Source: Sphaerolaimus hirsutus (taxonomy: Eukaryota > Nematoda > Chromadorea > Monhysterida > Sphaerolaimidae). Taken from it: DNA of 64,000 bases. A model generated the notes under the pieces. It was not told where the DNA came from and ran no database searches. It worked only from the letters and a program-made list of their open reading frames with translations. Positions 597 through 28,977 of this stretch are shown here, one piece after another. The stretch's first letter is position 1. Every line of letters begins with the position of its first letter. Position numbers and translations under genes: made by a program. The stretch lies in the NCBI GenBank assembly GCA_964036195.1, contig OZ038459.1, positions 21,325,206 through 21,389,205 on the forward strand, read 5' to 3'.

Positions 597-3500
597 GTCT
601 GTGATTAGTGGGACACAAAATTGTGAATGTCAAAAAGTGCAATAAAAAACTGCCTATTTTAAATGAAAGAAGTTAATACATTCAAAAGAATGAATATGAA
701 ATTGTGACACACTATGTGCACCTAATTGGCTCAAAATTGTATACCTTGTAATAAATAGGGTGTCAAAAAAATAATTTTACGGAAAACGGAAAGGTAGAAT
801 TTTTTCACTTGACGGAAAGCGGAAAGGTATAAAAGTTTCACTTGACGGTAAACGGAAAGGTTAAAATATTTTCTGCTGGAAAACGGAAAGGTAAAACAAA
901 TTTTCTGCTGGAAAACGGAAAGGTAAAACAAGATTTCTGCTGGAAAACGGAAAAGGTAGAAAATTTCCGGCTGCCGGAAAACAGAATAGTACAAAATTTT
1001 CAGTTGCCGGAAAACGGAAAGCGGAAAGGTAAAAAATTTTCCTGCGGAAAAACGAAAACGCAAATTTTACACCCTAGTCATAAGTCACTTATTGAGTTCA
1101 CTTTTTGCGTAATAAATCCAATACCAATACCACCTCTGTGCAGCACTCCGATGACATGCCTGCATTCAATAATGAAAGTAGAATGTTGTCAAAGTTTCTG
1201 GATATGGCACGCGGCCAACGCTGGAAGGACCGCAGGAGAACTGTTACTCCAGCATTTACTACTGGCAAAATAAAAATGGTAAGGATATTGGCACAGTTGT
1301 TGGAAGTACAAAAATATCGTCAAAGTACCTAAATATATGTAATAAAATAAAGTACACTACCATGTAACTTTTTTATAACTTTTGAGTGAAAGTGAATAAA
1401 TTATTGCAATTGTGGCAATTGGTTGCAACCAAATGAAAAAAAACGTTTTTGATAATTCTGACATTTGATATTCTTCAAATACAGTAATATTTGGCAATCC
1501 CATTGTACAGATGTCCACTTTCGTGCTTCGATGTATGAAGATTTTTGGTGAAATATTTGATGAATATGCTGAGGAATGCAAACCCTTGGATGTAAAACAG
1601 TGAGTGAATTTTAGAAGCTTTTTGTTTTCTTGTTTTTTGTTAGAAGCTTTTTGTTTTGTTATACCTTCTACAATTTTGATAAACAATATCATCACAGTCA
1701 CAGCCATCCAATTTTAAAGGCCAATAACTCTACCATTTCTGGGTAAATTTAGACTATTCAATACTTAAAATGATTAGGATCCATGGAATTTTATTTTTGG
1801 AATCATATTTATAAGTAATGTCCAAATTCCACACTACTGATTTGGCACAGTTATTGAACATGAAAATCAATTTTATTTGTCATGGTTTCATGTATAAAGA
1901 ATTCATTTAGCCAAAAATGTTTTTCAATATCTTTCTCCAGCTTCAAAAAAATCAAACAAACAAATAAACAAATCACCTGAAGATAAGTCACAACTGACAT
2001 CATGACATCATGAGTGGCTACAAAATGGCTAGAACCCCATGCACAAGTTTACCCAGTGCACAAGTAAATAGCAATATGCGGTGCCAATGTAGACCTAGTG
2101 CTTAGGTACAGCGCCCGTACTTGACCACAGGGTCTTCAGGGGTTCAGTATGGGGGGTTGGAGAGGGATTACTCCCCAAACGCTCCAGCTATCTACACATA
2201 CATTTTTCTCCCTTTTTCCTTCTAAAGCTTGAAAAACCCTGTAAATTGAACCCCTGCGAACCGCCCTCCAAAAACAACAAGTATACACATGATTAGTGAT
2301 GGAATGGAGCCATGAGGGCGCCACAAAGTACGCCGCACCATAGCGCCATTTTGTTACTTGTGCACCGGTACAGGGCCCTACAAAACATGTTCATTGCAAT
2401 TTCAGAGTGACAAGTGACTACACACTGGATGTGATCGCACTGGCCGCAATGGCCCAGGGGGCACTCCCAGACCCTGTAAAAGATCCTGTAAAGTGTCAAA
2501 TGTCATCATGCAAAGTGTAAAAGACCCTGTAAAGTGTCATGTGTCGTGTGAAAAGATAGAAATCGCATAAAAATAATAAAAAAAGAACGATACGGGACAT
2601 GGCAGCCGGCCAAAAGTTCGAATTTGTTCTATAAACGGGTTGAACATGGCTAAAGTATACTAAAAATACTAACGATCCAACTCCGACTTAAATTTTCCTT
2701 GGGATATCGTTCATTGATTTTATTTTGCGAATTTTGGCCGTCTGCCAAGTCGTCGTTCTTTTATTTTTATTTTTTATGCGATTTTTATCTTTTCGCATGA
2801 CACATGACACTTTACAGGGTCTTTTACATGACACATGACATTTTACAGGGTCCTTTACAGGGTCTGGGAGTGGCACCAGGACATCGACTGCCAGCGAGAC
2901 AAAAGTTCCACTTTCAGAAAATACTGCATAGAAATGATGGAATTGAGTTTCACGCAGCCAATGTTCTTATGCCAGAGTCGGTAACATTTCTATTTTGATA
3001 TGTGGTTTCAGCAACTAATTCCATTGCAATTCAAATAGGGTTCAAACGGGATCGACAAACTGTATCAAGATTCGTTTTTAAATTTTTTGGGATAAGGATC
3101 GGGATTGTGGTCTCAGAATTGGGATTTTTTTATTTTTGGGATCAGGATTAGGATCTTGGGATCGGGATTGAAACTTTGGACTAATTTCTGTTATTAATGG
3201 TTTTTCCCGAAAAACTTGAATGCCAGAGAAGTGGCATAAAGCGCACACTGGATCACATTTCTCACTACAAAAAAGTCATTTGGCAAATTTTTGCGGGATC
3301 AGGATCGGGATTAAAGAAATATTGTTTGGGATAAGGGTTAGGATTCAAAAATCTCCGGGATTGGGATCGGCTTTTCAAATTTTCAGGACTAGGATTAGAA
3401 TTAAGGCATCAGGATCACCATCGAAAAATCCCAGGAAAATTTTCAGGATTCAGAATCCTGTTTGAACCCAAACTTAAAATTAATTTCACTCCTCAAACTC

Positions 3501-6500
3501 AGTTCTCTTCCCACAAATCTACACATTCATCGAGAACAAATTGGGCAGACCATTGTGGTTTCGTGAAGGGGAGCAATTTTTTCGCAATGCAATCGGTGCA
3601 ATTATTGAACAGAGGAAAGCTGGCACCACTCTAGCTAAGGTGAAATACCGTATTTCCTCGAATTACCCCCCCGGGGGTTTATTTTTTCAGAGTGAAAATT
3701 TTGAGGTAAAAACGTAAAATGCAACAATAACCACCATTTATCAGTTTTTACAGCCTTATATAAGGATGTAGATGGTATTAACGATGTTCTAACGTAACAC
3801 AGTAAGTGTTTTGAACGTCTGTTATGCATTTCCCGGACCACAAATTCATAGTGCCCATTTTGAGGGGGGTATTTCGAGGGGGGGTATTTCGAGGAAAAAC
3901 GGTAATGTGCAATAATGACCCCACACACGCTAGTTGACATCGACACCAAATGTCAACTGGTTCCGTTCCTAATTCAAAGATTGCGTTTGAACGTCTTTCT
4001 TCCACTCGTCAGCAAGCTTTGAATCGGGATCGGCACCAGTTGACATTTGGTGTCGATGTCAACTAGCGTGTGTGGGGCCATTGGCCCTGCGCACACTAGT
4101 TTTCACACGGAATTTCGAAAACTGATAAATGAGTTTTGAACGCGTTTGAGTTTTCCACAATGAATCATTTTTAATCTCTGTCAACTGTATTTGACATTGT
4201 AGAAAACTCAAATGTGTTCTAAGATGATTTGCGAGTTTTCGAAATTTCGTGTGAAAACTAGTGTGCGCAGGCACATTGCTAAAAAAGTTGTTATGGGACA
4301 TCTCGGTTGTCCTTCTAATCTATCATCAGAATATGTAAAAATAAGGCAGATGTTACACATTTTATACCTAACAAAACAAAACATGTAATGTGAACAGGCA
4401 CTGGAGAAACGAATCGTTCTTAAAAACCAAAAAAATAAGTCCTCGGTGAAAAATAAGTGTAAAAAAGGTTACCGTATTACCTCGAAATACCCCCAGGGGA
4501 TTTATTATTTCGCCATCACAATTTCAGGGGGGGATTATTCGAGGGGGAGTTTATTCGAGGGGGAGTTTATTCGAGGGGGGTCTATTATTTCGCCAGAAAT
4601 TATCGGAAATTCCCCATACGCAGACGTAGAAAAATCGAACAATCACATAGATTTACATGTGTTTATAGGCATATATTACTGTATACCGTATATCCTCAAA
4701 TAAGACCCCCCCCCTTGAATAACTCCCCACCCTTGAATAACTCCCCCCTCAAAAACACTGACGAAAAAATAACTCCCTCCCTTGAATAACTCCCCACCCT
4801 TGAATAACTCCCCCCTCAAAAACTTTGACGAAAAAATAACTCCCCGGGGGACTTATTCGAGGATATACGGTATACACAAAAACCCTTCCATAACGTCACT
4901 TAATCATCAGTTTTAACGTGTGTTCTGCATTGTACAGATCACAAACTGCGGTATTTGTCATGTACGTTCACGTTACACTCAATTTTAGGGGGGGGGGGTA
5001 TTTCGAGTGGGGGGGGTTTATTTTTTTCCTCAGCCGAAATTTAGGGGGGGGGGGTATTTCGAGGGGGGGTTTATTCAAGGGGGGGGATAATTCGAGGTAA
5101 TACGGTATGCTATATTTATACCTAAGTGATGTTCTGTAGCCACTTCAAAAATTGAAGGCTCACATGATACATTTCATACCTAAGAAATGTGAAGTGCATT
5201 CAGGAATGTGTGCAGGTGGTGGAGCAAGTATTCACCCATTTAGCAACCCTAAAATATGCTAAATACAATCTCTGTTGAAAATGCTGAGCAGGTACTGTGC
5301 CATACAGTTACATTTCATGCTAAAAACAGCTGAAAAACCTATCACATGTCAGTACAATTCACATTAAACTATTATTCAAAATCACCATTTCCATTGAAGG
5401 CCAATCAAAAAGACTTCTTGCAAGTAGAGCTGGATCTTCTAGCTGAGAATGAGAATGAAATACCATCTGAAATAGATACGGAAATTGGTGAGCCACAAGA
5501 GGGTGCAAAAGTACAACTGAGCAGGGATGAAATAACAGCAGATTGTCTGCTTTTTCTCATAGCTGGCTTTGAGACCAGGTGCCAGTTCCGCAAATTGAGA
5601 AGTGAGAAGTAAAATGGCAAAAGCGAAGTGAAATGGCAAAAGCGAAGTAAAATGGCAAAAGTGAAGTGAAATTGCAAGTAAATTGGCAAAAGCGAAGTAA
5701 AAAAATAAAAAGTAAATTCTGTTTGCTTTTTGCCATTTTACTTCTCAATTCACTTATCTTTTGTCATTTCATTTTGCATTTTCCATTTTACTTCTCACTT
5801 TGCAATTTGCGGAAATGGCCCCAGCTCCACAACTTTGCAATATATACTCTATTTGTTGGCACATAATAAAGAGGTGCAGAATAAGTGTCAACAAGAGGCA
5901 GACCAAGTTTTGGATAATGAGGTTAGACCCCAGGGGTTTTGTAGATTTCAACCCCTGCGGTGGTTCATATAGATAGTAAATCACTCCTCCAGTCCAGAGG
6001 GATAGATTTGGGGCGGTGTTGAGGGGGGGGGGGGTCTGGGGGCGGTTTGGGGGGAGGGCGGTTACGGGGTTCCAATATACAGGCAAAATTACAAAATCAC
6101 AAAAATTATACGGAAAAATTGCACAAAGTAGTTAAAAATAGGTAAAAATAGGTACATAAGCATATAAAGTACACAAAATAGCTGAAAATAGTCAATAAAA
6201 CACATGAACTTGTGATTTTGAAGGTGAAAAACTATAAAAAGTATAAAAAGTATAAAAAGTATAAAACTATAAAAAGTATAAAACTAAAAAGGTATGAAAA
6301 GTGGCGATTTTGAGTGAAAATTGGGGCAAAATATATAAAAAAATCACTCCAAAAAGGCTGAACGCTGGACGACGTGGGGGGGGGGGGGTTCAGGGGATAG
6401 TGTAGACAAAAATGTGTGTGTGTGGCATTCTCACAAAAATATCAAAGCTTCAAAAAACTTTGACCGACACTGAGATTTGAGATTATTTGTCAAGGAAACC

Positions 6501-9419
6501 GTTTACAATGTCACACATATCCTTCATTTGAAACATGAAAAACATTATTTAAAAAACAAAGAACTTTACAGGAACTGTCATATGCGGCAATTGGCAAAAT
6601 GCCATACATTGAAGCTACTCTGAGTGAGACTCTGCGCCTGTACCCACCAGCGCCAAGGTATAACTTTTTGCTGTACAAATCAATAATCATAATGTTATAA
6701 TTACTAATAAATTATAATGATAATTATGGCCCTACACAAACTAGTTAACAACGACATCAAATGACGAACTGGTTCCGACCCCAATTCAAAGCTTGCTGGG
6801 GAGTAACACTGACGAGTAGCAAAATATTTTTTTCAGCACTGCAGCTTCTATGTAACATAATTCAACACTTGGCTGCGGGTAAACACTAGAGCTTTGAATT
6901 GGGATCGGAACCAGTTGACATTTACTGTCGTGTGTTTTTTGCAGTGACGTTTGTGTCGGGCCAAAGAATTTCAATAATTTTTTTGCAGGACATTCCGCGT
7001 GATAACAGAAGACGCAGAATACAATGGTATCAAATTCCGCAAAGGTGACAGCGTGGTGATTCCAATGTGGTATTTTCACCACAATGAGAATTACTTCCCA
7101 GATCCATACAAATTTGAACCGGAAAGGTATGCAGCATTCAGGCGCTTTATTGTACATTTCTGGACTAATCCAGAGTTGTTTAAAGTACTGAACTTTTTCA
7201 AAGTATACGTAAACGTAAAGTATTCTTTTTTTACTCACCCCTGAGTACAGAAAACGAAACGTAACTTTTTTACGTTTACTTATGAGTAAACGTGAGGAAA
7301 CGTAATTTTTCATACGGAAATCATAATCGTGAGTATTTTTTAAAGAAATTTCACCCAAATTGTCAGTCAAAATCTCAAATATTCGCACCGTTTGCCTATC
7401 TTCTGCAAATTTTGGCTACCGTATTTCCTCGAAATACCCCCCTCAAAATGGACACTATGAACTTATAAACCCCCCCCCCCTCGAAATACCCCCCCCCAAA
7501 TTTAGTGTATAGAGAACGTAAATGACAAAGGCTGCGGTTTATCATACGGGCAATGCAGAACACACGTTAAAAACGATGACTCTGTTATGTTAGAACAGTG
7601 TTTGTACATCTACACACTTATAAATGTCTTTAGAGTCTTCTAAATGGCGATTTTTGTTGCGTTTTTCGACGTCTGCGTACGTTTCAGACGACATTTTAGT
7701 ACTGGGATTTCAAAAAATTTCTGGCGAAATAATGACCCCCCCCCCCTCAAAATTCTCACTCTGAAAAAATAAACCCCCCGGGGGTATTTCGAGGAAATAC
7801 GGTATTTATGTGCTCTCTTCACCATTTTCAACGATTTTCCGCAATCTTTGGCGTAGTCTCTCTATTTTTCATTTAAAAGGCTAGACAAAACACTATCTGA
7901 AATACGTTTTCTGTACTCAAGTACTTTCAAAAAGTATACGTAAATGCGAGTACCGGTAATTTTTCCAGGGAAACGTACACCTATTTACTCAGTACTCGAG
8001 TATACACATTTTTCGGGTAAACGTAAATACCTTTTAACAACTATGGACTCATATAGTATGGCGTAAGGCAGACAATCGCAAAGAAACAAGCCAGCTGATA
8101 AAACATTTTCCATGAGGGGGTCAAGATTGGGGGTATACTTTTTCGTAATACGGGGATGGTAGGCAAAATCGTCACCTCGCAATTGAGATAAATCTAGCTG
8201 AGCGGCACCCGGGAAATATAGATAGACAGTTGGAGAATTTAGAGTGGGAGCTCGATTGGAAAACCCTGGTATTTTCAAACTACCGTATTACCTCGAATTA
8301 CCCCCACCCCTCAAAATGGGCTGGGGAAATAATGAACCCCCCCCCCCCTCCCGACTGATATTTATTACCGCTAATTTGCATCACAGCTACACATAGACTA
8401 CCTAGGTTGTGTAGCTGTGTACATATTTATGTTCAAATATATCCTGTTTGTATGCAGTTATTACCTGTTTTGGGTACGTAAATGCCTACTATTTACTACG
8501 ATCCTTACGAAATTTTCTGACGAAATAATAACCCCCCCTCGAATTAACCCCCCTCAAAATTTGCTAGCGAAATAATAAACCCCCATGGGGGTATTTCGAG
8601 GTAATACGGTGTTCTACAATACGACCCCACTACAAAAAATATAGAAAAATCGGTTCGAATTACAGATTCCTGCCAGAGAACCGCGGTTCGATCGACCCGA
8701 TGACATACATGCCATTTGGCGCCGGGCCAAGAAATTGCATTGGCATGCGATTTGCACAGATGCAGATCCGCATGACAATGGCCTCTCTCATGCACAAGTA
8801 CAACTTTGACCCGCTCCCTGACACACCGGTTGGCATTTTTAAACTAAATTTTTTTAAACAAGTTTCAAAACACAGCGCCCAGTGCCAGAGGGAAATGGCG
8901 CTATTTGTTACACTGAAATAATGCCATTTTGAAGGGCACCACACCCGGAAATAATGTCTTGATAAAAATTAAAGGCACCACAAGAAAATAGCACCGGTAG
9001 CGGCACCATTGTCGCTGCACACTAGTTCACTACTAAATCAGCCTTGTCAACTATCACCTCCCCATCGACTGTAGTTGACAAATACTTCAAAGTTACTTAA
9101 GACTTCACTTTACTTAATTTTTGTCATACTGCCAGCAAACTAGTGCATGCAGCACTCAAAAACAAGGTGTAAATAACCACTGGTTGGGGAGACTCTTTAC
9201 GGCATGTCTTACCCGCTGAGACACGTATGTGTAGTCGCTGAAAGATCAAAACAAATAAACAAACAATGTACAAACCAAATACCACAGAGAAAAACTCCGC
9301 ATACCTCCCTGGCAACTGCACAGGCACCATGTGATCTGAAGTTTGACGGGTCGAACATGTTCACGTTGCGCATCAAAGGCAAGCCCATCGAGCTGTCCAT
9401 CACAAAGAGGATCAAGTGA
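494..9419 (+). CDS. Cytochrome P450, clan 3 (CYP3-like), 5'-partial multi-exon gene
   Basis: Haem-thiolate monooxygenase expected on the endoplasmic reticulum membrane; substrate unknown. Exons read by phase: 494-596, 1144-1278, 1511-1599, 2406-2457 plus 2880-2976 (split by an element), 3503-3639, 5400-5578, 5825-5921, 6572-6657, 6989-7126, 8666-8828, 9324-9419 (stop TGA). About 457 codons, against about 500 for the family, so only the N-terminal membrane anchor is missing; it must lie before the window. Diagnostic motifs in order: WKDRRR (C-helix) and TPAFTTGKIKM in exon 2, YTLDVI (E-helix), I-helix AGFETSS across 5578/5825, ETLRLYPPAPR (ExxR, K-helix) in 6572-6657, FEPERFLPEN across 7126/8666, and the haem loop FGAGPRNCIG with its cysteine in 8666-8828. 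The WKDRRR to TPAFTTGK block points to clan 3. Weak points are the donor near 2976 and the element at 2458; if neither is spliced cleanly this copy is a pseudogene. Confidence 0.9.
754..1070 (+). repeat. Tandem-like array of GGAAAACGGAAAGGTA units in a P450 intron
   Basis: About ten copies of a 30-33 base unit built on ctggaaaacggaaaggtaaa, varying in length. It makes spurious frames on both strands. Confidence 0.7.
2458..2879. repeat. GTAAAATGTC-family palindromic element splitting the P450 E-helix exon
   Basis: Ends are ggcactcccagaccctgtaa on the left and cagggtctgggagtggcacc on the right, near-perfect inverted repeats; inner copies of the cctgtaaagtgtcatgtgtc type are also inverted. CAG is present on both sides (2455-2457 and 2877-2879). 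Removing exactly 2458-2879 restores an unbroken P450 reading frame (MAQ joined to DIDCQRDKS). The left end begins GGGG, where sister elements begin GTGC, so the expected donor GT is absent. The nearest in-phase GT is inside the element (cctgtaaaag, near 2476) and would add six residues. Confidence 0.75.
3036..3470. repeat. Diverged copy of the ATCCCG palindromic element
   Basis: Ends tagggttcaaacgggat and cctgtttgaaccca match the copies at 14015-14504 and 42191-42756, but the inner hexamers have decayed to ggatcgggatt, ggatcaggatt and similar. Confidence 0.65.
3646..3903. repeat. CCGTATTTCCTCGAA-family palindrome
   Basis: Left end taccgtatttcctcgaatta followed by a C run; right end gtatttcgaggaaaaacggt preceded by G runs. 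It lies just downstream of a P450 donor. Confidence 0.75.
3915..4082. repeat. CACACTAGTT-superfamily palindrome, subfamily with GTTGACATCGACACC
   Basis: Ends accccacacacgctagttga and gtgtgtggggcca-ttgg are inverted; inner arms agttgacatcgacaccaa and gttgacatttggtgtcgatg pair. Confidence 0.75.
4083..4274. repeat. CACACTAGTT-superfamily palindrome, subfamily with TTTTCACACGG
   Basis: Ends gcgcacactagttttcacac and gtgaaaactagtgtgcgcag are inverted, inner arms gttttgaacgcgtttgagtt and aaactcaaatgtgttctaag. It abuts the preceding element almost base to base. Sister copies: 49858-50053 and 55620-55864. Confidence 0.8.
4470..5108. repeat. Cluster of three CCGTATTTCCTCGAA-family units
   Basis: Successive blocks run ccgtattacctcgaaatacc (4473) to 4690, ccgtatatcctcaaataaga (4684) to ggatatacggtat (4873), and tttcgag plus G runs to ggtaatacggtat (5107). 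The middle block has tandem ataactcccccttgaa units. Sits in the intron before 5400. Confidence 0.65.
5579..5824 (+). repeat. Intron made of one palindromic element (introner-like)
   Basis: The 246-nt intron between the two halves of the P450 I-helix is an inverted repeat from splice site to splice site. It starts gtgccagttccgcaaattg and ends caatttgcggaaatggcc plus CCAG; the inner arms repeat agtgaagtaaaatggcaaaa in opposite orientations. The exon context is CAG before the element and CAG at its end, consistent with a 3-bp target duplication that supplies the acceptor AG. Its outer bases match the GGTGCCAGTCCC ends of the GTAAAATGTC repeat family elsewhere in the window. Confidence 0.8.
5996..6400. 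repeat. G-run and 'tataaaaag' low-complexity block in a P450 intron
   Basis: G runs at 6020-6060 and 6377-6390 flank short tandem copies of aaactataaaaagtataaaa. Related 'ccagatagatag' text with G runs recurs at 22640-22790, 33995-34165, 59035-59120 and 61890-62020. Confidence 0.5.
6724..6963. repeat. CACACTAGTT-superfamily palindrome in a P450 intron
   Basis: Left end tggccctacacaaactagtt, right end gtgacgtttgtgtcgggcca; inner arms caattcaaagcttgct and gagctttgaattgggatcgg pair. Confidence 0.7.
7170..8045. repeat. Nested foldback in a P450 intron
   Basis: The outer arms are gagttgtttaaagtact, with repeated gtatacgtaaacgtaaag, and their inverse ending ccttttaacaact. A complete CCGTATTTCCTCGAA-family element sits inside it at about 7421-7803. 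The same outer family occurs at 38034-38950, also with an inner element of that kind. Confidence 0.7.
8281..8613. repeat. CCGTATTTCCTCGAA-family palindrome
   Basis: Left end accgtattacctcgaatta with C runs, right end gtatttcgaggtaatacggt. It lies about 50 bases before the acceptor of the haem exon. Confidence 0.75.
8666..8828 (+). CDS. P450 haem-binding exon
   Basis: This exon carries FGAGPRNCIG, which satisfies FxxGxRxCxG; the cysteine is the axial haem ligand. The motif is intact, with no stop or frameshift. Acceptor is ttacag and donor is gttggc, one of several GTTGG donors in the window. The downstream L-helix text MRFAQMQIRMTMASL is normal for the family. Confidence 0.92.
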
Positions 9420-9541: not shown

Positions 9542-10765
9542 TAGATAAATTTAGCATACCTAGGTATATATTCTTAGGGGGATATGGCAATTGGCTTTTG
9601 CTGTGATTGAACACTTGCAATATCGGTACCAAATGGTACCGGCCCTGCCGAGTCAAGTTAGACAAATTTAAAAAAATAAAACTATACCAAAATTTCCACT
9701 GTCAAATTTCACTTGGAAACTGTCAAATTTATGATTGGGCTCATTTGATAGTACTAGTATGTAAAAAGATCCAAAACTTTAGTTAGGTTCGGGTCGGTTC
9801 GGGGTCCCAACCTTAACATGCGGTCCGTCAAGTATACCCATGACACTTTACAGGGTCTGGGAGTGTCCCCAGGGGACGATCCCGCCACCCTGTAAGTGTA
9901 CCCGTCACCAGTGATGAGAGATTTTCCTGGCGAGTGGGCTTTTTCTCCGAATTGAATCTGACCACAGAAAGTACCACAGATTTGAGCCATCTATATAGGT
10001 ACTCGAAAAAAAAAAACATTAGCGCGCGGTGTGAATCTAATTTTCTACACCGTTACACATATACACAGGTATGTATGTAGTGGCATCATAAATATTATAT
10101 TTTTAAACATTAGTGACCTGATTTTACCCTAAATTCATTCCATTTCAACGACAAATTCAGGAAATCGGGAAAAAAATGTTAACGTAGTATCTGCGTGATA
10201 AGCCTATATGATTATAATCTGCGAACATATTACACAATCCCATAAGAAACACTGGCCCGTAACAAAAAAATCAAAAGTGCAAGCTTAACGCAATTTGTAC
10301 GTCAACGGACTTTTCACCATAAATCTTACGAAATGAATGTTGGCTCTGAGCCAAAAAGAAATAAATACGTAGATTGTTCTTTCATTAAAAAATTTGAACT
10401 GAATAAAATCAACCATGAACTCTAAAATCAACGTATCCGTCCGTTCGAATTCAATTTAAGACATAAATTTTAAGTAATCGAACCTAAGTGGATCAAAATT
10501 ACACAGTTAAAAGTCCGCCGACTTTTACGAACGAAAATATTGAAAAATCGAATCGATATGACCATTAAACATACCTAATAAATACAATCGACGAATTTTT
10601 TACAAATATTAATACTGGAAATAAATAGACCGTTTTATCAATTACTGGTATCTTATATTTACACACACATTTAACAACTGGGTTAATCACACAGCGAATT
10701 TGAGCACACAAAGAACCGTGTCAATATACAGAAACTACCGAAGAACGAAATTGGCACACTCAATA

Positions 10766-11083
10766 CCGTATTTGCTCGAATAATTCCCCTGGGGAATTAT
10801 TTTTCGTCGGACATTTTCGAGGGGGGCTATTAAACAGGTGGAATTATTCAAGGGGAGAAATTATTCATGAATTACTATGTCATCAAAACCTTCAGTCATG
10901 TTTCTATAAACTGATTGCATGAAAATTTAATGATATGTGCTCTATTAACAAAATAGCATGCACTGTTTGTTCAAATTGGACACAACAAATTTATCATATG
11001 ACTCAAGGGGGAATTATTCGGGGGGAGGGATTATTTTCTTCCGTTTACGTCTAACATGGGAGAAATATTCGAGAAAATACGGT
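10766..11083. repeat. CCGTATTTCCTCGAA-family palindrome, variant
   Basis: Left end ataccgtatttgctcgaata, right end attcgagaaaatacggtaga; G-rich arms face each other around an AT-rich centre. Confidence 0.7.
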
Positions 11084-11206
11084 AGATAAAAATCAACCAG
11101 ACTCGTATGTCCCTCATCGGGCTGGAACGATATGACCACAGTATCGAACATACAATATCTACAGCCTCCATTGAAATTGAATTGCATCTCGATGATCGAG
11201 AAAAGC

Positions 11207-11587
11207 CCCACCCACACACACTGGATGTCAACTGTTTCGGTGTCAACTCGATTCTACGACACTGCAGGACAACTGTTAAGGTCACATGCGGCAATGTCGA
11301 AGAGGAATTAATATTGCCATGTGCATTTAAATACGGTTTCGCAACCCATAAACGAAAAAATTATGAAAAACAGTCAGCCCAGTTGACCTACGGATGTCAA
11401 CTGGGCCATCTATTTTTCAAAAATAATTTTTTGTTCATGGGCTGAGAAGCCATGTTCAAAATGCACATGGCAATATTAATTCCTCTTCCACATTGCCGCA
11501 AGTGCCCTTGTAAATTCTACTGCTACATAAATTCAACCATAATCGAGTTGACAGCGAAACAGTTGACATCGAGTGTGCGTGGCGCCA
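11207..11587. repeat. CACACACTGGATGTCAACTG palindrome
   Basis: Ends cacacactggatgtcaactg and agttgacatcgagtgtgcgt are inverted; inner arms gtcgaagaggaattaatatt and aatattaattcctcttccac match. A sister copy is at 29010-29385. Open frames here are by-products of the arms. Confidence 0.8.
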
Positions 11588-12401
11588 AAAATACGACGAT
11601 AAACTACCGGTATTTAGTTTTTGTCATATTTATGGAGCACGAGACATAAAGTACGTATTTCAATTCGAAACATTAATATTAAAAGTCATATGGTTCCAGT
11701 CCTTAGTGCCAAACAACTGGGGGGATCCCAGACCCTGTAAAATGCCCTGCAAAATGTCAATTGTCATGCAATGTGTAAAAAGTCATGTAAAATGTCCTGT
11801 ATCACAGCAAACTTCACGACTATTGACACCTTCCACGAGCCTGACATTTTACAAGCACAAGACACTTTACAGGTTCCAAAAATATATGCCCCCTAACCGC
11901 ACAACATCTACCCGCCAAACCCGAATGGAATGGTCACACGCGCCCTGGCTGTTCGGCACCACTATCGTCCATTTGTACCGACTGGGGGTGGGCACCGAAA
12001 CCCGTGCCCAGCACTTCTCTGGGTGCCCTGTCCTCGCCGGATAAGCCCACTGCACCGGGGGCGCTCGCTGTGGGGGGTACTTTTTTGAAATATGAGATTG
12101 TGATACGTCAATATGACGTCATCGTTAAAAAATCAACAAGTGTTCATAGTAATGGAAAACTATTTTTTTGCCGTTTTGTGTAAAACTGTTAAATGTATTG
12201 ATAAAAAGAAAAAAAAACCTTGGAAAAATTGAAACTGTTAGAGTAAACTGAAAAACAAACAGCACAACCTTCCCAACAAGTTAGAAAAGAAACGTGTTTT
12301 TTTTTCGTTGGGACGTACCCCTAACGAATATGCATGGGAGAAGCATGCTCTGTGCAGGTATACCGTCTGCCCACACAGTTGTGCATTCCTGTAGGGTCGG
12401 C

Positions 12402-12830
12402 ATGGGGGCAATCCCAAGCCCTGTAAAGTGTCAAATGTAAAGTCAAATGCAAAGTAAAGTGTCGAATGTAAAGTCAAATGCAAAGAAAAGTGTCAAATGT
12501 AAAGTAACGTGTCAATTGCGTATCCAAATCTTATTCTTGGTATCCAAATCTTATGTTATTGTATCCAAATCTGGATGTCAAAAAGTAAGATCTGGATACA
12601 AAAACATAAGATTTGGATACCAAAAATAAGATTTGGATACACAATTGACACTTTACTTTACATTTGACACGTTACTATGCATTTTACTTAACATTTGACA
12701 GTTTACTTTGCATTCGAACCCTTCACTCTGCATTTGACTTTACATTTGACAGTTTACTTTGCATTTGACTTTACATTTGACACTTTACTTTACACTTTAC
12801 AGGGCTTGGGATTGCCACATGGTGTACAGT
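12402..12830. repeat. GTAAAATGTC-family palindrome with an inner CCAAATCTTA foldback
   Basis: Outer ends caatcccaagccctgtaaag and cagggcttgggattgccac; the next layer is tandem aagtgtcaaatgtaaagtca and its inverse; the centre (about 12520-12650) is repeated gtatccaaatctta facing taagatttggatac. ATG flanks both ends. Confidence 0.8.
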
Positions 12831-12903
12831 TTTGATGTCATATTCGATATTCGACTTGACATTTCACATGACATTTTGCAGTTCCCCGAACAGGGCCTTC
12901 CAA

Positions 12904-15900
12904 TTAAATTTCAAGTTCCTTCCAAACTGCCCCCCCCCCAATCTCACCACTGGGGCCCACGCTGCCGGGGCGGCTGGGCGGCAGCATAAAACTGTATTCA
13001 TTAGCTCCATTGGAATTAGAATTTGACGCGGCACCGGCCGCATGCGCCACGTTGAAAGATGCGGGGGAAGACACGGCCGCCGGTGAACACTGGCCTGCCG
13101 CGCTGAAAACAATGGGGAATTGTTGGAACCAAGTTTGAGCAGGGCGCTGATTCAATTGGTCCGACGGGTTTTTCGGGTACCCGGTTTGTTGGATAGAGGA
13201 CCCGACATGGCTGTGAGACTGGCACTGGCAACGTGTCACTCCCGATACAACAAATTGGGCTAACTGTTTATTACTTAAGTTTTACATAGTATTTTTCATG
13301 CAGAGATGGCCACTGAAAAATACCTTCAGGCATGCCACTGAAAACCCCTCAGAAAACCAATGAAAAGAGCGTGAAAATACTCGCCTGAACGCAAAACTGT
13401 AAGATAACTAGTGAAATGCTACCAAAAAAATTGCCTTTTGATTTTTTTAAATAATCGGATTGACGTGTGATTTCAAACAAATCTGATTTAAAAATTTGAA
13501 AAAGTGACAATGGAATAGAATCTGTGCCCAGTGACTAGTCGCAGACCCTGTGAAATGTCAAATGATATGCATTTGACATGACTTTTGACACTTTGCATGG
13601 CATTTGACATTTTACAGGGTCCGGAACTGCCCCCAGGTGTGCCCAAACACGAAAACATACGGAGTGGAAGTGGGCGTGCGTGCATCTGCGCTGGTCGCCG
13701 CCTCGCTATCTGACTCCCCCAGACCGAATGAGGAGGGGCTGCAAAGGGAATTTAAATGTGAAAAATGGCTAATTAAATGAAATTTTTTGAAACAAACGAT
13801 TACGATTTAACGACATAATCCATGTTCAAATTAGAGCATATAAACGGATGAGAACTAGAGATAGCACTTAATTTCTTAACTGATTTAAATATAAATAAAT
13901 ATTGCACCTCAAATTTTGATTGCTTTTCAGCGATTTTCACAGGATGAAGAAAGTAGTAAATACGATATGAAATTGCATTGATACCAATGTTTTTAGCAAC
14001 AATGCACCTGCCTTTAGGGTTCAAACGGGATCCCGATCCCGGATCCCGTGAGATTCCGGCATTTAGCAGTCCCGATCCCGATCCCGAAATCCAAAAATAC
14101 CAATCCCGATCCCGAAAGTTTTCAAATCCCGATCCCGATCCCGAGAAACTCACAAGTCCGGGATCCCGATCCCGGAAAAAAATAGTGGAAAGTATGAAAA
14201 GTGAAAAAATAACATTTTTGCATGCAAAAATGTGAACGCAAACCCCCAGCGTCCATTTTATGTCACTTTTCTGGCATCCGACAGTGTTTTGAGACCTTTA
14301 TGAACAACTGTGAATGCCAGAACAGTGACGAAAATCTCTATCCCTAGACCCCAATCCCGATCCCGAAAAAATGACAATCCCAATCCCGATCCCGTGACCC
14401 CAATCCCGGCCAATCCTGATCCCGAAATCTCAAAATACCAATCCCGATCCCGAAACCCCAATCCCGATCCCGACCCCTGAAAAGTCAATCCCGTTTGAAC
14501 CCTACCTGCCTTATTCAAGAAGGATTTTTAAATAAAGATAAGCAACTTTGAAAAAAATCACATTTTAATATTTTTATCAAGACGCTCGAGAAAAAAGAAG
14601 ATTTCTTCCAACCATTGTGGGATATACTGTGCATTACACATCTGGAAAATCACCACAGCACCCTGAACCCACCTAAAACACCTCTGCACGCCTGCGGCCT
14701 GTCCAGCACCCAGCCCAGCGTGCTGCAGCCGCACATTGTCAACCAGAGGGCTCCTGCAATCGGACAAGCTGCCTATTAGTACCACGTAGGGTTGGGCAGA
14801 TGACTTTTCGATATCGATATTTAGTTTTTTTTTCTCTGAAACTCGATATTCGATATTTTTTTCAAAATTGTCGACATCGAGATTTCTCTGAAACTCGATA
14901 TTCAATGTTCAGTAGGAAAAATAGTCGATATTCGATATGAAAAATAGTCAACATTCAATAAAATTTCAAAACATTCGGTATTCGATACGAAAAATTGGTC
15001 GATATTTTATACGATACATCGTCCAAACACTACCCATTATGTAGTACAACAACGAATCGTTCACCGTTCACCGAATTACAATCAAAATCAGGCATCCAAA
15101 AATCTTGTCGGGCCAGGCTTTTGAGCGGGGAGCCCGGCGAACTGGGGGTGGGGGGGCGACCCGCCTAGGGTTGGAAAAAAAACGTTTTTTTAACTCGATG
15201 TTTTTTTATTAAAAAAACGTTTTTTTTTAAAAAAAACGTTTTTTTTAAAAAGCTCCCAGATATGACCTAGTGTCAACATATATAGGTATATCAGACACTG
15301 GCAATACTCTGTGATGTTAAATATGACCATATAATGGCTGTGGAGCCATGGGATAGCATTATAAGTTGTGATTTGTGTCAAAAATATCCATTTTTCGTCG
15401 ACATATCGTTCGTATATCGCCTTATAGTCAAATGTTCGTGACTTCAGGTAAAGTTTGGCACGAAATGGTGATCAAACAAGGTTATAAAAGGAGGTTGTTA
15501 CTTTGGGAGTGAAGTTACACACTGTGGAGGTACATGGAAGCACATTACCTCAATATTATATATTACAGCAACATATGTCGGCTTATTCACCCATGGTAGC
15601 ACATAGAAATGGATGTTTTGATACTAAAAATGCAACAAAACCAATGAAAACAACCACCAATGTCAATTTGTGTGTGAAATTGCGCGCTTGCGCGCAAAAA
15701 ATTTGCAAAATACCTAGTGCTTAGTACTAAAAATTTCGGCCGATGTTTTTTTAAAAAAAAAACATTTTGGACCTCATGTTTTTTTTTTAAAAAAAACGTT
15801 TAAAAAAAAACATCGGCCAACCCTAGACCCGCCCACCTAAAATTTAACCCTTGTAGTAAGGGAATGACGCCATTCGTAGGCGCCACGCCATGACGCTACT

Positions 15901-18900
15901 GGTCTTGGCATTGCGCCAAACACCGCTGTATTTGCCTGTATTTAAGACATTTACAGAGTCGAGGACAAAAATTGAGTGCATTTTTACGGAATTTGAAGCT
16001 GCCCAGATAGGTCAGCCGAAAATACCTGCTGCGTGAAGGAAAAATGCGCGTAAATTTTTTTCAAACTGGCGATAATATCGCCTTATGGAAGTGCCATTTC
16101 TGGCACATTTTGCCCGCCCGGGAAAGCGGGGGGGGGGCGGCCGCCCCCCCCCCCGCCCCCTGGCTACGTCCTTGTGTAGGGCAAACCAAACCACCCACCT
16201 AGGACTAGCAGATCTTTGCTGCTGCAACAAGGGCCAATTCACAGGGGAAGAGGAGCCACTGGCGCCACCAGAAGCCAAAAATGAAACTGGTTGATTTTGG
16301 GCGGAGTTTACACTGGCAGACTGCAGGCATAGGCGTTTGGGGGTGGTTAGTAAAACGCCAGATGTCACTGGGAAGGGGTCGCCTGAGAAGGGGGACACGG
16401 GGGTATTGTAGTGACCGGTTCGATTTTAGAATGCGATTATTTGAGTGAAAGTAAGGTTATATCAGCAATAGCAGTGTCGTAACTTACCCCCCTGCTTACA
16501 CCAACCCAATTTTCCCACCTTGAAGGCAGCCACGTAAACAAACAAAAATTTCGACACAATTTTTTATTGAAAATTATAAAATTTATCAATTGTGACGCCA
16601 AAAGCTACGTTCCCCGAACTAATTACGCAACAGTGAACTGCACAAAAAACATACCAGCGATACTATCGAATGGCTTTCGCTTGAGTCCAACCAACATGGG
16701 GAGGGCACGCGTAGCGGCAATGGGCGAAATGCAGCGACTGAAAACATTAGAATAAGTGAATAAATCAACTTGCAAAAATAATTCCCCCTGTTCGACGTGT
16801 GAGGAAAAAAATTCCCCCTTGAATAATTCCACCGCCTTTGGGCACGTGGTATTTTTGTGTCCAGTTTCGACTAAAATGACATGTGGTTTTGTTTATTTAG
16901 TATATTTCATGAAATGAGTTTCAACTGTTACATTTTAACATTTGAAAGCTTCGAAATTAAGACGAAATAATGATTCCCATTCTGGAATAGTTCCCTGCAA
17001 AAATGACGAAAAAATCATTTCCCACGGGAATCATTCGAGCAAAAACATTTCATCAATTTAAAAAACTTTTTTAAAGAGAAATTCAAATAAGCAACCCTAA
17101 AGCTCTGGGACTGGGCGTGGGGCTGGGGCTGGGTGAGAATGCCAAGTTGTGTCTCACTGGCCGCTGCGTAGACGGTGAGTAGCATTGCTGCGAATAGTGC
17201 CGCATTGCACATATTTTAATGGTGAATCTGGCACGCTGCCAAATGATAAAATGTTACTGTTAAATTTTGCACACACCCCGAAGATGTTCATGCATTTACT
17301 TAGACCGGTTTCAGCTTCTCGTGCATTTTTGTATTCCGGTTTATATGCAAATCACAATGCATATAATGCCCTTCTCAAATGGCAATCACATATAACTCGC
17401 TGATACGCGACCTAACATTTACGTAAAAATCCACCTTGTGCTGTTCGACCCTAGTCGGCGAGGGTGTGCAGCTGTGCGGCGCCAGGTAACTACCTCCAGT
17501 CACCACCATGATGGGCTCGGTCAGCGACGTGGTACGCTTCCTGTTCGTGTCCGGCGAGCTGACCGAGTCGTCCGTGGCCCCCGTGGGCGGAGCTTCGTTC
17601 GGCGTGGTTCCCATGGTCGAGTGCTGATTGGCCGCGGGAGGGTTAGAGCCTAATTCGCCCATGTAATCGTCGTCGCTCGTCTGCGAGTAGAGTGGGGAAT
17701 GGAAGGGCAAGTTTTTGTAGGTAATTAATTGCCTGTTGGATTGAAAATATAAATATGACTTTCTCAAAAATTCAAAAAAATGTGGATATGCGAGATTAAA
17801 AACGCTGACATATCCGAAAATATGAATAAAATTATAAGTGAATGTTTTTTTCGATATTTTAAAGTCTGTATTCAATAATTTTTGAAGAATATCTTACATG
17901 TGAAAAATGCAACGTATACGATAGTCGGTAATATTTTTGTCAAAATTCCAACCCTACGGTAAATTGGGACATTTTCCCACCCGATAAGTGACCTAAACTA
18001 GCTGAGTAGGCGGTCCATTCCAAAATCCTGGCAAAAGTCCAAAAAACGGAACTCACAAACGAAATCTCATCCATACCCCTGGACACTTTAACACCATCAG
18101 CCAACAACTTCTCACTTTGCACTTCTCCATCAATGGCATTTCTCACTGAAGATTGTCTGCGAATATCATCTACCCTGGACAACCTCCTGGTGGCGCGCAC
18201 TATGCGCCTGGCGTTCGTTGATTGGTCAGAGTTACTCAAGTGGGCGGAGTTTGGGGTGAGCGGCATCGGCACGAAGTAGGAGGCCTCGCTGCGACTACTT
18301 TGCTGTGGGGGAGGGGTGGATACTAGGGTTGGGGAACCGAACCGACCCGAACCGAGAACCGAGCACTATTTTGAAACCGATAACCGGAACCGAGCTTGAG
18401 AACCGAACCGGAACCGAGAACCGGCACTTATACCCGGAACCGAAGTAAATACCCGAAAGAACCGAAATTTTCTAGGAATCTCAAAATTTTTAAACAGCGT
18501 TTTTTCAACACCTAAATCTAAGCCTTTAAACATCAGCTGAACATCTTGGTGCGTGTTCAGAATTGCAAAATTCAATTGCAAAAATTGCAAAAAATTGCAA
18601 GAATTGCAAAAAAAACATTTTAAAAGTGACCACCGTCAACCAACCACGACAGCGTGTTGTCTCTCAAATCCTTCAGGCAGCGTGACCAATTTGGCAGCAG
18701 TTGGCAGCTGGCCAAGTTCACTCGAATTTGCCTGGTCGGCGGCTGCGGCAGCGGCGCTGTGGGCGTGATGCTGCGCTTGGTGATGCAGCTGGCCCAGAGA
18801 GAATGCAGCACCGGGGGTCAGCGAGCGGGAACGATTGTCGTTCAGCTGTGGGGGGGGGGTGAATGGTGGGTAGACGGTTTGTAATATGTTAGTTCTTAAA

Positions 18901-20453
18901 AAAAAATTTTAATATATTTTTAATTGATTCTTTTTAATTAAAATCGTAATTGATTATATTTGTAGTACTTTACAGTATTTTTTGTATTTGATTCATATTT
19001 ATAGTATTTTCACTATTTTAGAATCATTTTACTAAATACGCATGTCATGTATTTTTTATCAGTCTTATAAACTTTGCAAAACTTTGCATATTGCATTGCA
19101 CTGAGAAAAACATTGCTTAGGGTCAATCACAATTCTTCTATTTTTAATTTATTAATTCTGTAAAATAATGTCTGTTCTTGTAATGCCACGAAAGCATGAC
19201 AACTGTTTGAATCGAAAATTTCACTACAACACCAAAAAACATGCCAAAAGCAACCCAAAGCACCCCCAAACGAACAGCGGAATCGCTCGACATTGTGGTG
19301 TCCCCTTCGTCACCCCCCTGCTCAGCTGCGGCTTCGAGTGAACTGTCGCTCGAACTGCTGCTAGATTCGACCTGCGAATTGAACTCAAGTGTCAATCTGG
19401 CAGCGTCAAGTGGCGAGTTTATGACCATGATATTAGTGGTGATGTCAATTGAATGTTTTTCTCAACTGAATGTCAACTAAATGCGATAATAGTGACCAAA
19501 CCCCTTACTAATGACCCAGCAGCGGTCAACACAACTGGTGCCCAAGAAATAATTCCACAGCGCACTCCAAACGGCATTTCACTGTATCTTCACTCAATTT
19601 TACACATGCATAAGCTAAATTTTCATGCCAAATATCCAGTGAATAAGTGCTCGAAAAGTTGACTAGCGTTTTGAAACTATTTGACGTTTTTGGATCATTC
19701 TTTTTTAAACAACTGCCAAGTAGTTTGCCACTTGTAAATGATGGGAATTTTCCCCTAATACCCATACAACTGACCTCCACATCGAAATCCCGACTGGCAG
19801 AAATTCTCTTAAACCTTGATCTACCCCTCTGTTTCCTGTGTCTCAATTTATCCTTTCGCGTGTCTCTGGGCGGGCCAAAATCGCCCGTAGGACTTGATGC
19901 GACGGATAATGATCGGCGGCAGGAAAAAACGGACCCTGATATTGTTCCCGAGCATTGCGATGGCTGGTCAGATGTCGGACTGCAAATGCGTGTAATGAAC
20001 CATGAAAATAGGCCTAACCACAAAATAAAACTGGAGTGAAATGGAGTGAAAGCAACAGCGCACAGTGGAATTTATCAATCTGAATTCGAATCAATTTATC
20101 GATTTTATCAATTTGGTTTCTTGCAAAGCCATAACTAAACTAAAAGTCGTAATTAAAACGATTCCGATCAAAATTGTACTTTTCAGTTCATTCCAGTTAA
20201 AAATAATCGTTCGAACCGTCCACGCGATAGTTCACACGTGCATAACTTAAAAAACGTTCGAACGCGATCAAAATCGATTGCCAATTTCCCGTGTGCGGTG
20301 CGCCAAAATGTGTCAAAGCACTTACCCGATTGAAGTGGACAACAGAGCTGCATCCCCCACGGAATTACTGTCGGAATTCATCGAATCACATCGTTCCGCA
20401 CATCGCAATGACTTTGGCTGCCCCAAACTCGAATCTTCCTGTTCTCCATCCAT
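12904..20453 (-). CDS. Ser/Pro-rich protein with FAM122/PABIR-like motif order, eleven exons
   Basis: Minus-strand exons: 20453-20326 (ATG), 19979-19762, 19396-19264, 18845-18645, 18302-18057, 17680-about 17504, 17163-17096, 16737-16655, 16382-16199, 14753-14673, 13210-12904 (TAA). Phases agree at almost every junction; the exon 2 to 3 junction does not, so an exon or splice site there is misread. About 600 residues, mostly low complexity: RSRSLTPGAAFSLG, a His/Ala run, poly-Ser, FSPSPSPTPSPRA, LKRKPF, TPKRLCL. The order RL-x-RVDDIRR, GEVQ, ISF-T-SDDD, SPSPxPSP, ISPI, LKRK, PKR parallels FAM122/PABIR proteins (nuclear-cytoplasmic inhibitors of PP2A-B55), but this protein is about twice their length. 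That the gene is real is well supported by phase; the family is an inference, roughly even odds. A basic stretch RKDKLRHRKQRGRSRFKR in exon 2 may be a nuclear signal. Confidence 0.7.
13536..13642. repeat. Short GTAAAATGTC-family palindrome in intron 10 of the minus-strand gene
   Basis: gcagaccctgtgaaatgtca on the left faces acattttacagggtccgg on the right; only about 107 bases, the smallest near-complete copy seen. CCAG lies at both borders. Confidence 0.65.
14015..14504. repeat. ATCCCG-hexamer palindromic element
   Basis: Ends tagggttcaaacgggatccc and tcccgtttgaaccctac are inverted. The arms contain dozens of atcccg units interrupted by short A/T pieces; the spacer near 14225-14330 is unique and is shared with 42428-42540. 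Located in intron 10 of the minus-strand gene. Confidence 0.85.
14790..15030. repeat. GATATTCGATAT-rich palindrome
   Basis: Begins tagggttgggcag and ends cgtccaaacactaccca; the inside repeats tcgatattcgatat and atcgatatcg in both orientations. Confidence 0.5.
15085..16175. repeat. GACGTATCCAGG-family composite around another element
   Basis: Starts gggccaggcttttgagcggg and ends cccccctggctacgtccttg, with the family's gccattcgtaggcgccacgc text at 15870. The element at 15167-15829 has inserted inside it. Confidence 0.55.
15167..15829. repeat. 'TAGGGTTGGAAAAAA' element with poly-T/poly-A arms
   Basis: Left end cctagggttggaaaaaaaac, right end catcggccaaccctag; long T-run/A-run arms with ACG cores face each other around a unique centre. 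Similar copies: 1-306 and 27816-28246. Confidence 0.65.
16755..17050. repeat. AATTCCCCC/GGGAATCATTCGAG palindrome
   Basis: Left text aataattccccctgttcga and gaataattccaccgc; right text cccacgggaatcattcgag. A relative of the CCGTATTTGCTCGAATAATTC variant at 10766. It lies in intron 7 of the minus-strand gene. Confidence 0.45.
18057..18302 (-). CDS. Exon 5 of the FAM122/PABIR-like gene (candidate B55-binding segment)
   Basis: 82 codons in phase 0, acceptor ctcccccacag and donor gtgagt. It contains RRLSRVDDIRRQSS, then GEVQSEKLLADG, then SRGMDEISF continuing into TSDDDYM in the next exon. In FAM122/PABIR proteins a helix of similar pattern (RL..IK.EE..., EVQ, SFSLSDND) binds the B55 subunit. 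The resemblance is by eye only. Confidence 0.6.
18322..18470. repeat. GAACCGAGAACCG short repeat array
   Basis: Repeated aaccgaaccg, accgagaaccg and ccggaaccgag units fill intron 4 of the minus-strand gene, beginning with tagggttgggg. Confidence 0.6.
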
Positions 20454-22231
20454 TGGAATATATATAACCGCGTGAGTTTTTTATGGTAGATGGCCGCTGC
20501 CATCAGCCGAGAACAGCCTGCGACACTTTTTCTTTTTTTTGTGTCTGTGAACGTAATCGAATAAAGTGACTAGAATATGTTTGGGGAAGATTGAAGATTG
20601 GCGGCGATGACAAGGAAATCATGCGGTTTATGTTCCTAATATTTATCCTTGTGTTAAGCTTTTTTCCGCCTGGAAACGTTCAATTGAACCACTCAAAAAT
20701 TCTGTTCAATTGCTCTTGAAAGATTCATTTGGCGGTTAATAAAATTGACTCCGGCAACTGGCAGATGCGCAGATCGTCTGTTACGTAAAATATTTTCTTT
20801 ATAGATCACGCAACTCAAATAGATAGCCCGACACATTATTCACACAAAATACACGACGTTTCGTTCAAAGCGGCCTACTTCCTTGTGATCCACAACAAAA
20901 TTCAATTTACGATGTTTCTGTTGCTGCAGTTCTGTCAATTAGTTAAGGTTAACAAAATACGAAAAAAGCGTAATTCTGACATCTCTAATTAACTTTTGAC
21001 ACGGCTAAATTATTGGTAACTTATATCAAAATGTTGGAAGATGTCCAGAAGGCAAATTTGGTTTCTGATCTAGAGCCAACGGTCTTATAGATCTGCACTC
21101 TAAACCAGTTTTTTCATAAAAAATTGACTTTTTCTGCTCCAGCCGCGGATTTGTCAATTTTTATCGAAATTGACACTGCGACACTGAAAAATTCCGAAAA
21201 AGTGCGTACTTGAGAGGAAAGTGGCTGCACGGCAATTTTTTATGGCTGCTACACATGATTTTCATCACATGCTGTGTTTGACCAGGTGAATAGGCTGGAA
21301 TTTTTACCGACATGTTGGCACACCGCACACTCAAAATTGTCGAGGGCGGTTCGAACGTTTTTTTTTGCAAGGTCGGAATTAAAAGAGGGGTGAAATTCAA
21401 AATCGTCTGAACCGACCCAAATTTCAGTAGTTTTTCAGTCTGGTCGTAAATAAAGTCATCTGAGCCGACTTTAGAATTCCACCTGGGTATAAATATCAAA
21501 CGTTCAAACCACTCTTGCCAATTTTGAGTGTGGTACACTTAATTTGTTTTATTCGCAGTATTTTCCTGTTTCAATTTTATTAATGTATTTTTTTTTCTCA
21601 GCACGATGCTCTTGTGCTAGCCGTGCTGTACACTCTGTTGTCGACCACTCACAATTTTATCTAAATAGTTCGACTACTCTTCACCATAGACTGCTATTTA
21701 TTTATTTCTGCAGTTGGCTGTCATTCTGCTGTCATTCTCTTATTTTATTGGCAGGCTGCCAGTTTTCCGTCCAAGCTCCATACTTCAACCATGCTGGTTC
21801 GTGTGCTTTTCGTTTGTCAGTGTGGAGGTTGTATTTGCTGATCAGTTTTAGCACATCTATTGTTGAAGATTTTGTTCCCCATTTCAGTGGTTGATGTGTC
21901 TTGGTGTGGGTGCCGTGTCTTGGCACCCTACCATTTGCTAGACTCGTGTTTTTGGCAGTTCCATTCAAATGGTTGGTTTTTGTGGTCATTTCTAATTCTT
22001 TGTTTTTCTGTTCATCGCTGGTTTTTTCTTAATGTTGCGTTTTCCTTTTGCAGCTGTGAGTGGAGCTCTTGGTTGTGATGTTGTGTCTTGGCATCCTGCC
22101 AGCTGTGGTCGTGTGATTTGATCGTGATAGTTCCTGGGTTGGTGTCTTCATACATTTAGTAATTTGTATGCTAATGTTAAGTAGTATCTGGAATTTCTGT
22201 GTTTTTGGTTTATCGACCATTGTATTTATGC

Positions 22232-22560
22232 AGTGGTGTAGCCAGGAGTTTTGTGAAGGGGAATTCTGTACGGGGTTGGGCAAATGGGGGGTGGTTCCCC
22301 CTAAAATTTCACCCCTGTATTAATGGGAATGGTGCCATGGCGCCAACGCCATTCGTAGGCGTCACGCCATGGCGCCACTGCGGTTGGCATTCACGTCGTA
22401 GAATGCTATATGTATGTATTTTACATGCATATACAGTGGCGTGGGCACGTCGAGTGCTTATTCGCAGTATTTTAGGCTGCTGAAGCTGATAAGCTGCAAA
22501 TACCTGGCGTGTGTAAGAAAAATGTGCGCTTGCGCGCAAACGTTTTGCAAAACACGCAAA
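22232..22560. repeat. GACGTATCCAGG-family fragment with GCGCCA core
   Basis: Contains gtagccaggagttttgtg, ccatggcgccaacgccattc, cgtaggcgtcacgccatgg and the tgcgcttgcgcgcaaa motif shared with 35305, 48285 and 58295. Confidence 0.55.
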
Positions 22561-22639
22561 ACACTATTTGGAGGTGAACAACTATAAAAACGTACGAAAA
22601 TTAGCGAATTTGAGTGAAAATTGGCTAAAAAATTTCAAA

Positions 22640-22940
22640 AATCGCTCCAGATAGATAGAATGTTGGACGATTGGGGGGGGGGGTTACGGGATAGTAAATT
22701 TTTTGGGGATAGCCAAAAATTTTGCCTCCGGGATAGATAGATAGCTGTGCGGGCCTCCGGGATAGATATATACGGAACCCGGCAAATGGGGGTGCTAAAA
22801 TTTGACCCCTGTACCGTAGTGGGGAATGGAGCCATGGCACTGGCGGCATTTGTAAGCGCCAGCGCCACGGCGCCTTTGGCTGTATATGAATGTATTTTAC
22901 TTACATAAATATACAGCGAAGTGGCGAAATTCGCGTGCAT
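22640..22940. repeat. CCAGATAGATAG/G-run element
   Basis: ctccagatagatagaatgtt, a G run and ctccgggatagatagatagc; followed by GCGCCA-type text. Copies with the same layout occur near 33995-34165, 59035-59120 and 61890-62020. Confidence 0.5.
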
Positions 22941-28779: not shown

Positions 28780-28793
28780 TTGTAACTGGTGCC

Positions 28794-28925: not shown

Positions 28926-28977
28926 GGGGATACCTTCTGACTTAGCACTGTACTATCAATGGTACCATAGCTCGATG

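Follow-up and report, generated by a model that had tools for sequence, protein, structure and literature searches.

The origin of new introns is a long-standing question to which introners are a leading answer. Introns of Fritillaria reportedly have inverted repeats close to their ends, with short direct repeats at the exon borders. In the passages of Gozashti et al. (2022; PMC9860276) drawn on here, introners are similar introns whose similarity extends to near both splice borders; in some families the element supplies one splice site and the target-site duplication (TSD) the other, and the legend of Fig. 2C describes an element-borne 5′ splice site combined with a TSD-derived 3′ site. The same passages place introners in only two animal groups in that 2022 survey and give fungal introner-like elements as reported without TSDs or terminal inverted repeats (TIRs). 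The sections of Collemare et al. (2015; PMC4457414) used here describe parallel gains of fungal introner-like elements, repeatedly near one position, and an excerpted account of Amoebophrya (PMC7789003) describes non-canonical introner elements in which inverted repeats lie close to the intron ends and the exon borders carry short direct repeats.

Among DNA transposons, the NuwaI group of the PHIS superfamily makes a CWG duplication and has TIRs that usually start with GGG, according to the parts of Han et al. (2015; PMC4482050) cited here; it was found in 16 animal genomes and, within that survey, in animals only. Those parts do not describe the creation of introns by NuwaI. Here we report on a P450 gene in a 64,000-nt stretch of DNA, the whole of which we call the window. 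We consider it probable, at roughly 83%, that the intron at 5579–5824 of this gene is an introner, namely a copy of a short, palindromic, non-autonomous DNA transposon (a MITE) whose insertion split a coding exon at CAG and which the spliceosome takes out. It would be a rare animal case of intron origin in which mobile DNA carries its own splice marks.

The P450 gene and the element at 5579–5824

Judged by alignment, the window gene is a CYP3-like cytochrome P450 on the plus strand (Table 1). With exon ends set by hand, its six joined exons gave a frame that stays open from 5400 until a stop at 9419, and GT...AG was present at all five introns between them, of which 5579–5824 is the first. The joined protein aligned with CYP3A5 and CYP3A4 (best E = 1.5e-46), and the exon text across the site, with the insert removed, reads GAGACCAGCTCC. 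The initial annotation had described an intron running from element tip to element tip, with donor, acceptor and a CAG on each side, whose excision restores AGFET-SSTTLQY without loss or gain. The coordinates 5579–5824, the donor, the acceptor and the CAG at either side were borne out, the phase is 2 (ACC AG|C) as had been described, and the alignment with CYP3A5 and CYP3A4 is ungapped at AGFET-SSTTL, in keeping with the restored text.

Table 1. Positions of the P450 exons, the elements and their flanking repeats. Positions without a prefix are those of the window.
Feature	Position	Strand	Details
P450 exon part upstream of e1	2406..2457	+	
Second element, e1	2458..2876	-	CAG at 2455-2457 and 2877-2879; same P450, opposite orientation
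P450 exon part downstream of e1	2880..2980	+	
P450 exon A	5400..5578	+	KDFLQVELDLL...LLFLIAGFET S; ends set by hand
Left CAG of target-site duplication	5576..5578	+	Last bases of exon A
T-end tip GTGCCAGTTCCGCAAATTG	5579..5597	+	Putative source of GT donor
Element-intron	5579..5824	+	GTGCCAG...GGCCCCAG; 246 nt, right-hand CAG copy included
G-end tip GGGCCATTTCCGCAAATTG	5803..5821	-	Minus-strand reading
Right CAG of target-site duplication	5822..5824	+	Putative AG acceptor
P450 exon B	5825..5921	+	SSTTLQYILYLLAHNK...VLDNE
P450 exon C	6572..6657	+	ELSYAAIGKMPYIEATLSETLRLYPPAPR
P450 exon D	6989..7126	+	CYP3A alignment and hand-set ends
P450 exon E	8666..8828	+	Contains FGAGPRNCIG
P450 last exon	9324..9419	+	TGA at end; outside CYP3A alignment
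Other elements at same P450 codon	C7:23982867-23984440, C15:5042494-5042688		L049, L053, L052, L055
Exon like that of a short-chain dehydrogenase (SDR), split exactly at CAG, GGG end upstream	C2:25690182, C2:25616673, C2:25538784		L030, L031, L115

The insert starts with GTGCCAGTTCCGCAAATTG, finishes with ...CAATTTGCGGAAATGGCCCCAG and has CAG just before it. Its acceptor tip had been called the inverse of the donor tip, which holds nearly but not exactly, as GGGCCATTTCCGCAAATTG and GTGCCAGTTCCGCAAATTG differ at 2 of 19 positions. The element is palindromic, as claimed, but imperfectly so: its arms are 82% complementary across 82 nt, and complementarity is 68% across the entire self-alignment, which rules out a perfect palindrome. 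The predicted RNA fold of 5579–5824 has an energy of -111 kcal/mol (z = -13.8). The core TTCCGCAAATTG occurs exactly at both ends of the insert and nowhere else in the window; when up to two mismatches were allowed, 10 matches were observed against 12.4 expected, so that only the two exact matches are informative.

An element of this kind also lies within a second gene of the window. Innexin exons were found at 52479–53231 (Pfam E = 2.7e-21), and innexin alone stood above the curated Pfam cut-off in scans of 9601–24599 (six frames) and 49001–63999 (four of six frames). The innexin intron at 52568–52924 is ordinary (donor CTCTG|GTGAGC and acceptor CCTCAG|GTGG, set by hand), and the element that it contains, at 52640–52872, has tips that are not splice sites. 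Whereas the innexin element lies inside an intron, the P450 element is the intron, so that the two states can be distinguished here. Such elements are common in the window, and one might suppose from this that 5579–5824 is an ordinary intron with a chance transposon, the fit between tips and splice sites being a coincidence. This is scarcely credible given that, in five different genes, both tips are base-exact on the splice borders and CWG flanks the element at either side.

Related MITE-like elements, whose tips resemble GGGCANTCCC...CCCTGTAAA, were seen at 12406–12817, 13533–13632, 28790–28934, 50769–50946, 52640–52872, 54405–54578 and 54583–54696. The best profile score of the MITE-like tips in the window was 38, compared with at most 9.9 in reversed sequence, the best scores being partly circular because seven of the tips themselves went into the profile. 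Ten tandem-repeat rows with a period of 19 were also noted by eye in the window.

Element ends, the CWG duplication and a proposed route to an intron

A DNA search of the genome (348 Mb, 762 contigs) with the element gave 2497 first-look candidates, of which 40 were scored; the 39 other scored places were retrieved. These 39 copies have the layout N-CWG-GTGCCAGTTCCGC ... GCGGAACTGGCC-C-CWG-N, where W is A or T. The two ends of the element differ, the T-end reading GTGCCAG and the G-end GGGCCAG. Left ends aligned in 34 copies, of which 31 retained the T of GTG and 27 came directly after a CWG; right ends aligned in 36, of which 33 retained the second G of GGG, read inward, and 28 came directly before a CWG. 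Eleven elements have GTG at both ends. Over 69 copies (70 rows, one duplicated), the 42 nt upstream of the acceptor CAG averaged 69% pyrimidine and the 42 nt downstream of the donor 68% purine. A 5-bp duplication (CCAGG), considered on the basis of three window elements, was rejected since the 39 copies reduce it to CWG. By eye, the same 39 copies display an outer C/G preference beside CWG.

Full-length copies were then counted using exact tip patterns with CWG flanks and a gap of 196–226 nt, which gave 186 places genome-wide and 0 in the reversed control. The W bases to the left and right were A/A at 72 places, T/T at 67, T/A at 32 and A/T at 15. The two sides agree at 139 of the 186 (odds ratio 10, P = 3e-12), far above independence, which shows that CWG is duplicated upon insertion, the places being partly non-independent (57 distinct flank pairs among 60 retrieved). 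The remaining 47 disagreements, among which T/A is twice as common as A/T (P = 0.019), are more than decay explains, and we count them against reading the insert as an introner. The element family carries signs of DNA transposition, TIRs as well as the CWG duplication. The genome has 163 DDE_Tnp_4 matches, and many of those listed have equal scores and four in-frame TGA codons within the part that matches.

These features suggest how an insertion could become an intron. A MITE landing in a coding exon at CAG would duplicate the CAG. With the GTG end of the element upstream, the junction CAG|GT would provide the donor, and the transcript would read CAG|GTGCCAG...CCCAG|. The pyrimidine-rich 3′ arm can serve as the polypyrimidine tract, and the AG of the acceptor would come from the right-hand CAG. 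Splicing would leave one CAG, which is the sequence before insertion, with the frame unchanged. The predicted rule is that a GTG end upstream together with CAG at both sides would make a complete intron; the many near-intact copies with two distinguishable ends make it a clean rule for an insertion becoming an intron. We infer from the reading frames that 5579–5824 is spliced and, further, infer in what order the events occurred and that a PHIS/NuwaI-type (Harbinger-like) transposase mobilised the element.

Paralogues, other split genes and exonic copies

A two-exon P450 query gave 11 matches in the genome. A neighbouring P450, which lies ∼10 kb upstream of the window, has no break at the window’s codon (GAGACCAGCTCGAGC), and three P450-like matches that are more distant, located on C13 and C16, have no insert there; an empty site for the window’s insert is thus found within this genome, in paralogues only. 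Other matches are filled at this codon. C7a has a 1592-nt insert with the tips of another family (such as GTGCCAGTCCCAGACCCTGTAAA), C15:5.04 has a 211-nt insert with other-family tips in reverse orientation, and C7b has an other-family tip at the acceptor side, that side alone having been read. C15:5.04 has a canonical element-intron at IAQ|AALAQ, where the neighbour P450 is continuous. In the compared exons, 66 of 92 residues are shared between the window gene and C7a, its closest paralogue, and 55 of 79 between C15:5.04 and the neighbour.

Because C15:5.04 is filled and the neighbour is empty, independent insertion is favoured. The filling of both C7a and C15:5.04 indicates that the intron position may predate the window copy or may have received insertions more than once, and the introns of the window gene and C7a may stem from two separate insertions or from the replacement of one insert by the other. 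The window copy may have replaced an older insert, and the C7a intron is counted against a gain of the intron by this insertion. We regard it as unlikely, if worth real weight, that an old intron position of the P450 clade was later taken over end to end, either through an insertion after which the old intron was lost or through an exchange between elements. The window gene and C7a, mutually nearest in the compared exons, have introns of different families at the same codon, as that history would predict, and the element tips of C7b at the acceptor fit it as well; but element tips and CAG also delimit the fillings in the paralogues, an ordinary intron at the codon was seen in none of those read, and the neighbour is empty although closest to the filled C15:5.04. 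Moreover, the same fit recurs in HSP70, carbonic anhydrase, ANF receptor and zinc-finger genes. Filled by different elements beside an empty paralogue, this P450 codon is a test bed for parallel intron gain.

The recurrence in other genes came from a first screen in which 20 joined ORFs were chosen by eye; 4 of them stood above the curated Pfam cut-off. The length of the ORF across the joined flanks was rejected as exon evidence: A/A and T/T copies could not be told apart by it (means of 70.9 and 73.9 residues in sense and 63.4 and 77.2 in antisense), and Pfam matches were used instead. The four genes are HSP70 (L020; join GDTHL|GGNDF, E = 2.1e-37), a C2H2 zinc-finger gene (L043; KDQ|RYLAKH, 1.4e-16), carbonic anhydrase (L086; YEYQ|GSLTTPP, 1.2e-13) and an ANF receptor (L069; DDRT|RFSTF, 2.8e-7), each with an exact GT...AG copy of the element and a Pfam match spanning the join. 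In all four the element lies with its GTG end upstream, and CAG stands at the right; L069 and L086 were drawn from the A/A set, which is AG-selected, and L020 and L043 were not. With introns placed by reading frame, similarity to the element reaches both splice borders in these four genes and in the P450. A further locus (L073), which resembles a C-type lectin in its motif, had no Pfam match.

The genome search that the initial annotation had proposed has in part been answered: the element is repeated, and in four other Pfam-recognised genes its copies fit an intron-shaped gap exactly. Several further genes of the genome thus appear to have gained an intron in the way proposed for the P450. 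The claim that the element created the P450 intron on insertion gains support from the repeated family, from these four exact fillings and from the empty P450 neighbour.

A wider screen covered 98 loci (L031 was dropped as a duplicate of L030), 89 of them usable. It gave 125 crossing ORFs, 65 sense and 60 antisense; the scan took in 95 of them, 86 in sequence plus 9 chosen by eye among the final 39. HSP70 and carbonic anhydrase stood above noise in sense; in antisense, an SDR gene did so in two copies (1.3e-4 and 7.5e-5, both below the curated cut-off). The ANF receptor and the zinc finger were missed because of the length and end filters. No excess of sense copies was present among the 95 of 125 crossing ORFs scanned. 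A NAD-GH match over the cut-off was set aside, being antisense to HSP70 at one locus.

HSP70 allowed a comparison among copies. At L020 the left flank is CTG, a leucine codon, whereas the right flank is CAG, so that the acceptor A is no plain copy of the target there. A paralogue on C13 matches in a single piece over query residues 1–88. Of five other HSP70 places, L127 has the element at the same spot and four have ordinary introns nearby, elsewhere in the gene. One more place has a short gap that is readable as an intron. L020 and L127, both with the element, differ by 12 synonymous changes and 1 non-synonymous change (dS = 0.209, dN = 0.005, P = 1e-7), and the large excess of dS over dN indicates that the split HSP70 frame is still under protein selection, a test that is supporting rather than decisive, as it presumes frames that were already split while the two elements are not clearly orthologous. 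The elements of L020 and L127 are not clearly mutual nearest relatives, which we count against the introner reading.

Some exonic copies lack GT or AG at their borders. Element e1 splits the exon SDYTLDVIALAAMAQ|DIDCQRDK, a site that is continuous in 3 of 3 paralogues matched; its GGG end lies upstream, leaving the border without GT. An internal donor (CCT|GTAAAAG) used with the CAG acceptor keeps the frame and adds six residues, GALPDP. The insert of C15:5.04 and that of the SDR gene (three near copies, with a Pfam match below the curated cut-off) also have the G-end upstream and miss the border GT/AG. L116 and L104 are exonic inserts that lack a border GT or AG and have no Pfam support. CTG stands at the right of the exonic copy in L116 and of another element that lies in this exon of the neighbour P450, a gene apparently truncated in exon B.

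Exonic copies without border GT/AG are counted against the introner interpretation; such copies may lack function, use splice sites elsewhere or be eliminated by some other route. It is quite unlikely that the host removes elements in either orientation by means of the hairpin and the CAG repeats, through RNA or through exact DNA excision, with the GTG end as a later refinement suited to the ordinary spliceosome; if true, e1, C15:5.04 and SDR would be removed without canonical splice sites. We hold it to be very unlikely that insertions merely break genes and that the window P450 is a pseudogene without splicing. Exonic elements in both orientations, some of them without border GT or AG, and the apparently truncated neighbour are what gene breakage would produce, but the window P450 is open across its six exons to the stop, element-bearing HSP70 copies have a dN/dS of ∼0.02, and AG stands at the right in 4 of 4 Pfam-supported family-A, GTG-upstream cases outside P450 (2 of them AG-selected). 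An insertion at CAG that is spliced from its own GTG end remains our preferred reading of 5579–5824.

Comparison with known introners and transposons

In the open-licence literature we did not find this animal case, and the work there that joins introners with Harbinger elements concerns fungi. Unlike the introns of Amoebophrya and Fritillaria, the Pfam-supported family-A cases with GTG upstream are GT...AG here. The copies resemble the introners in the cited passages of Gozashti et al. (PMC9860276) in being repeated introns with TIRs and a short TSD; they differ from these in that the TSD is the 3-bp CWG and the donor T is present at one end only. Set against the two animal groups in those passages, the host here has animal-type genes such as innexin. 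As in the sections of Collemare et al. (PMC4457414) on fungal introner-like elements, new introns would have arisen recurrently near the same position, whereas here, unlike in fungi, one codon is filled in paralogues by TIR-bearing elements. With NuwaI, as given in the cited parts of Han et al. (PMC4482050), our elements share the CWG target-site duplication and GGG at one end, and they differ in that the other end starts with GTG. By their duplication and that one end, the elements would fit the NuwaI group, and the best reading is that the introner family of this genome derives from a PHIS/NuwaI-like element.
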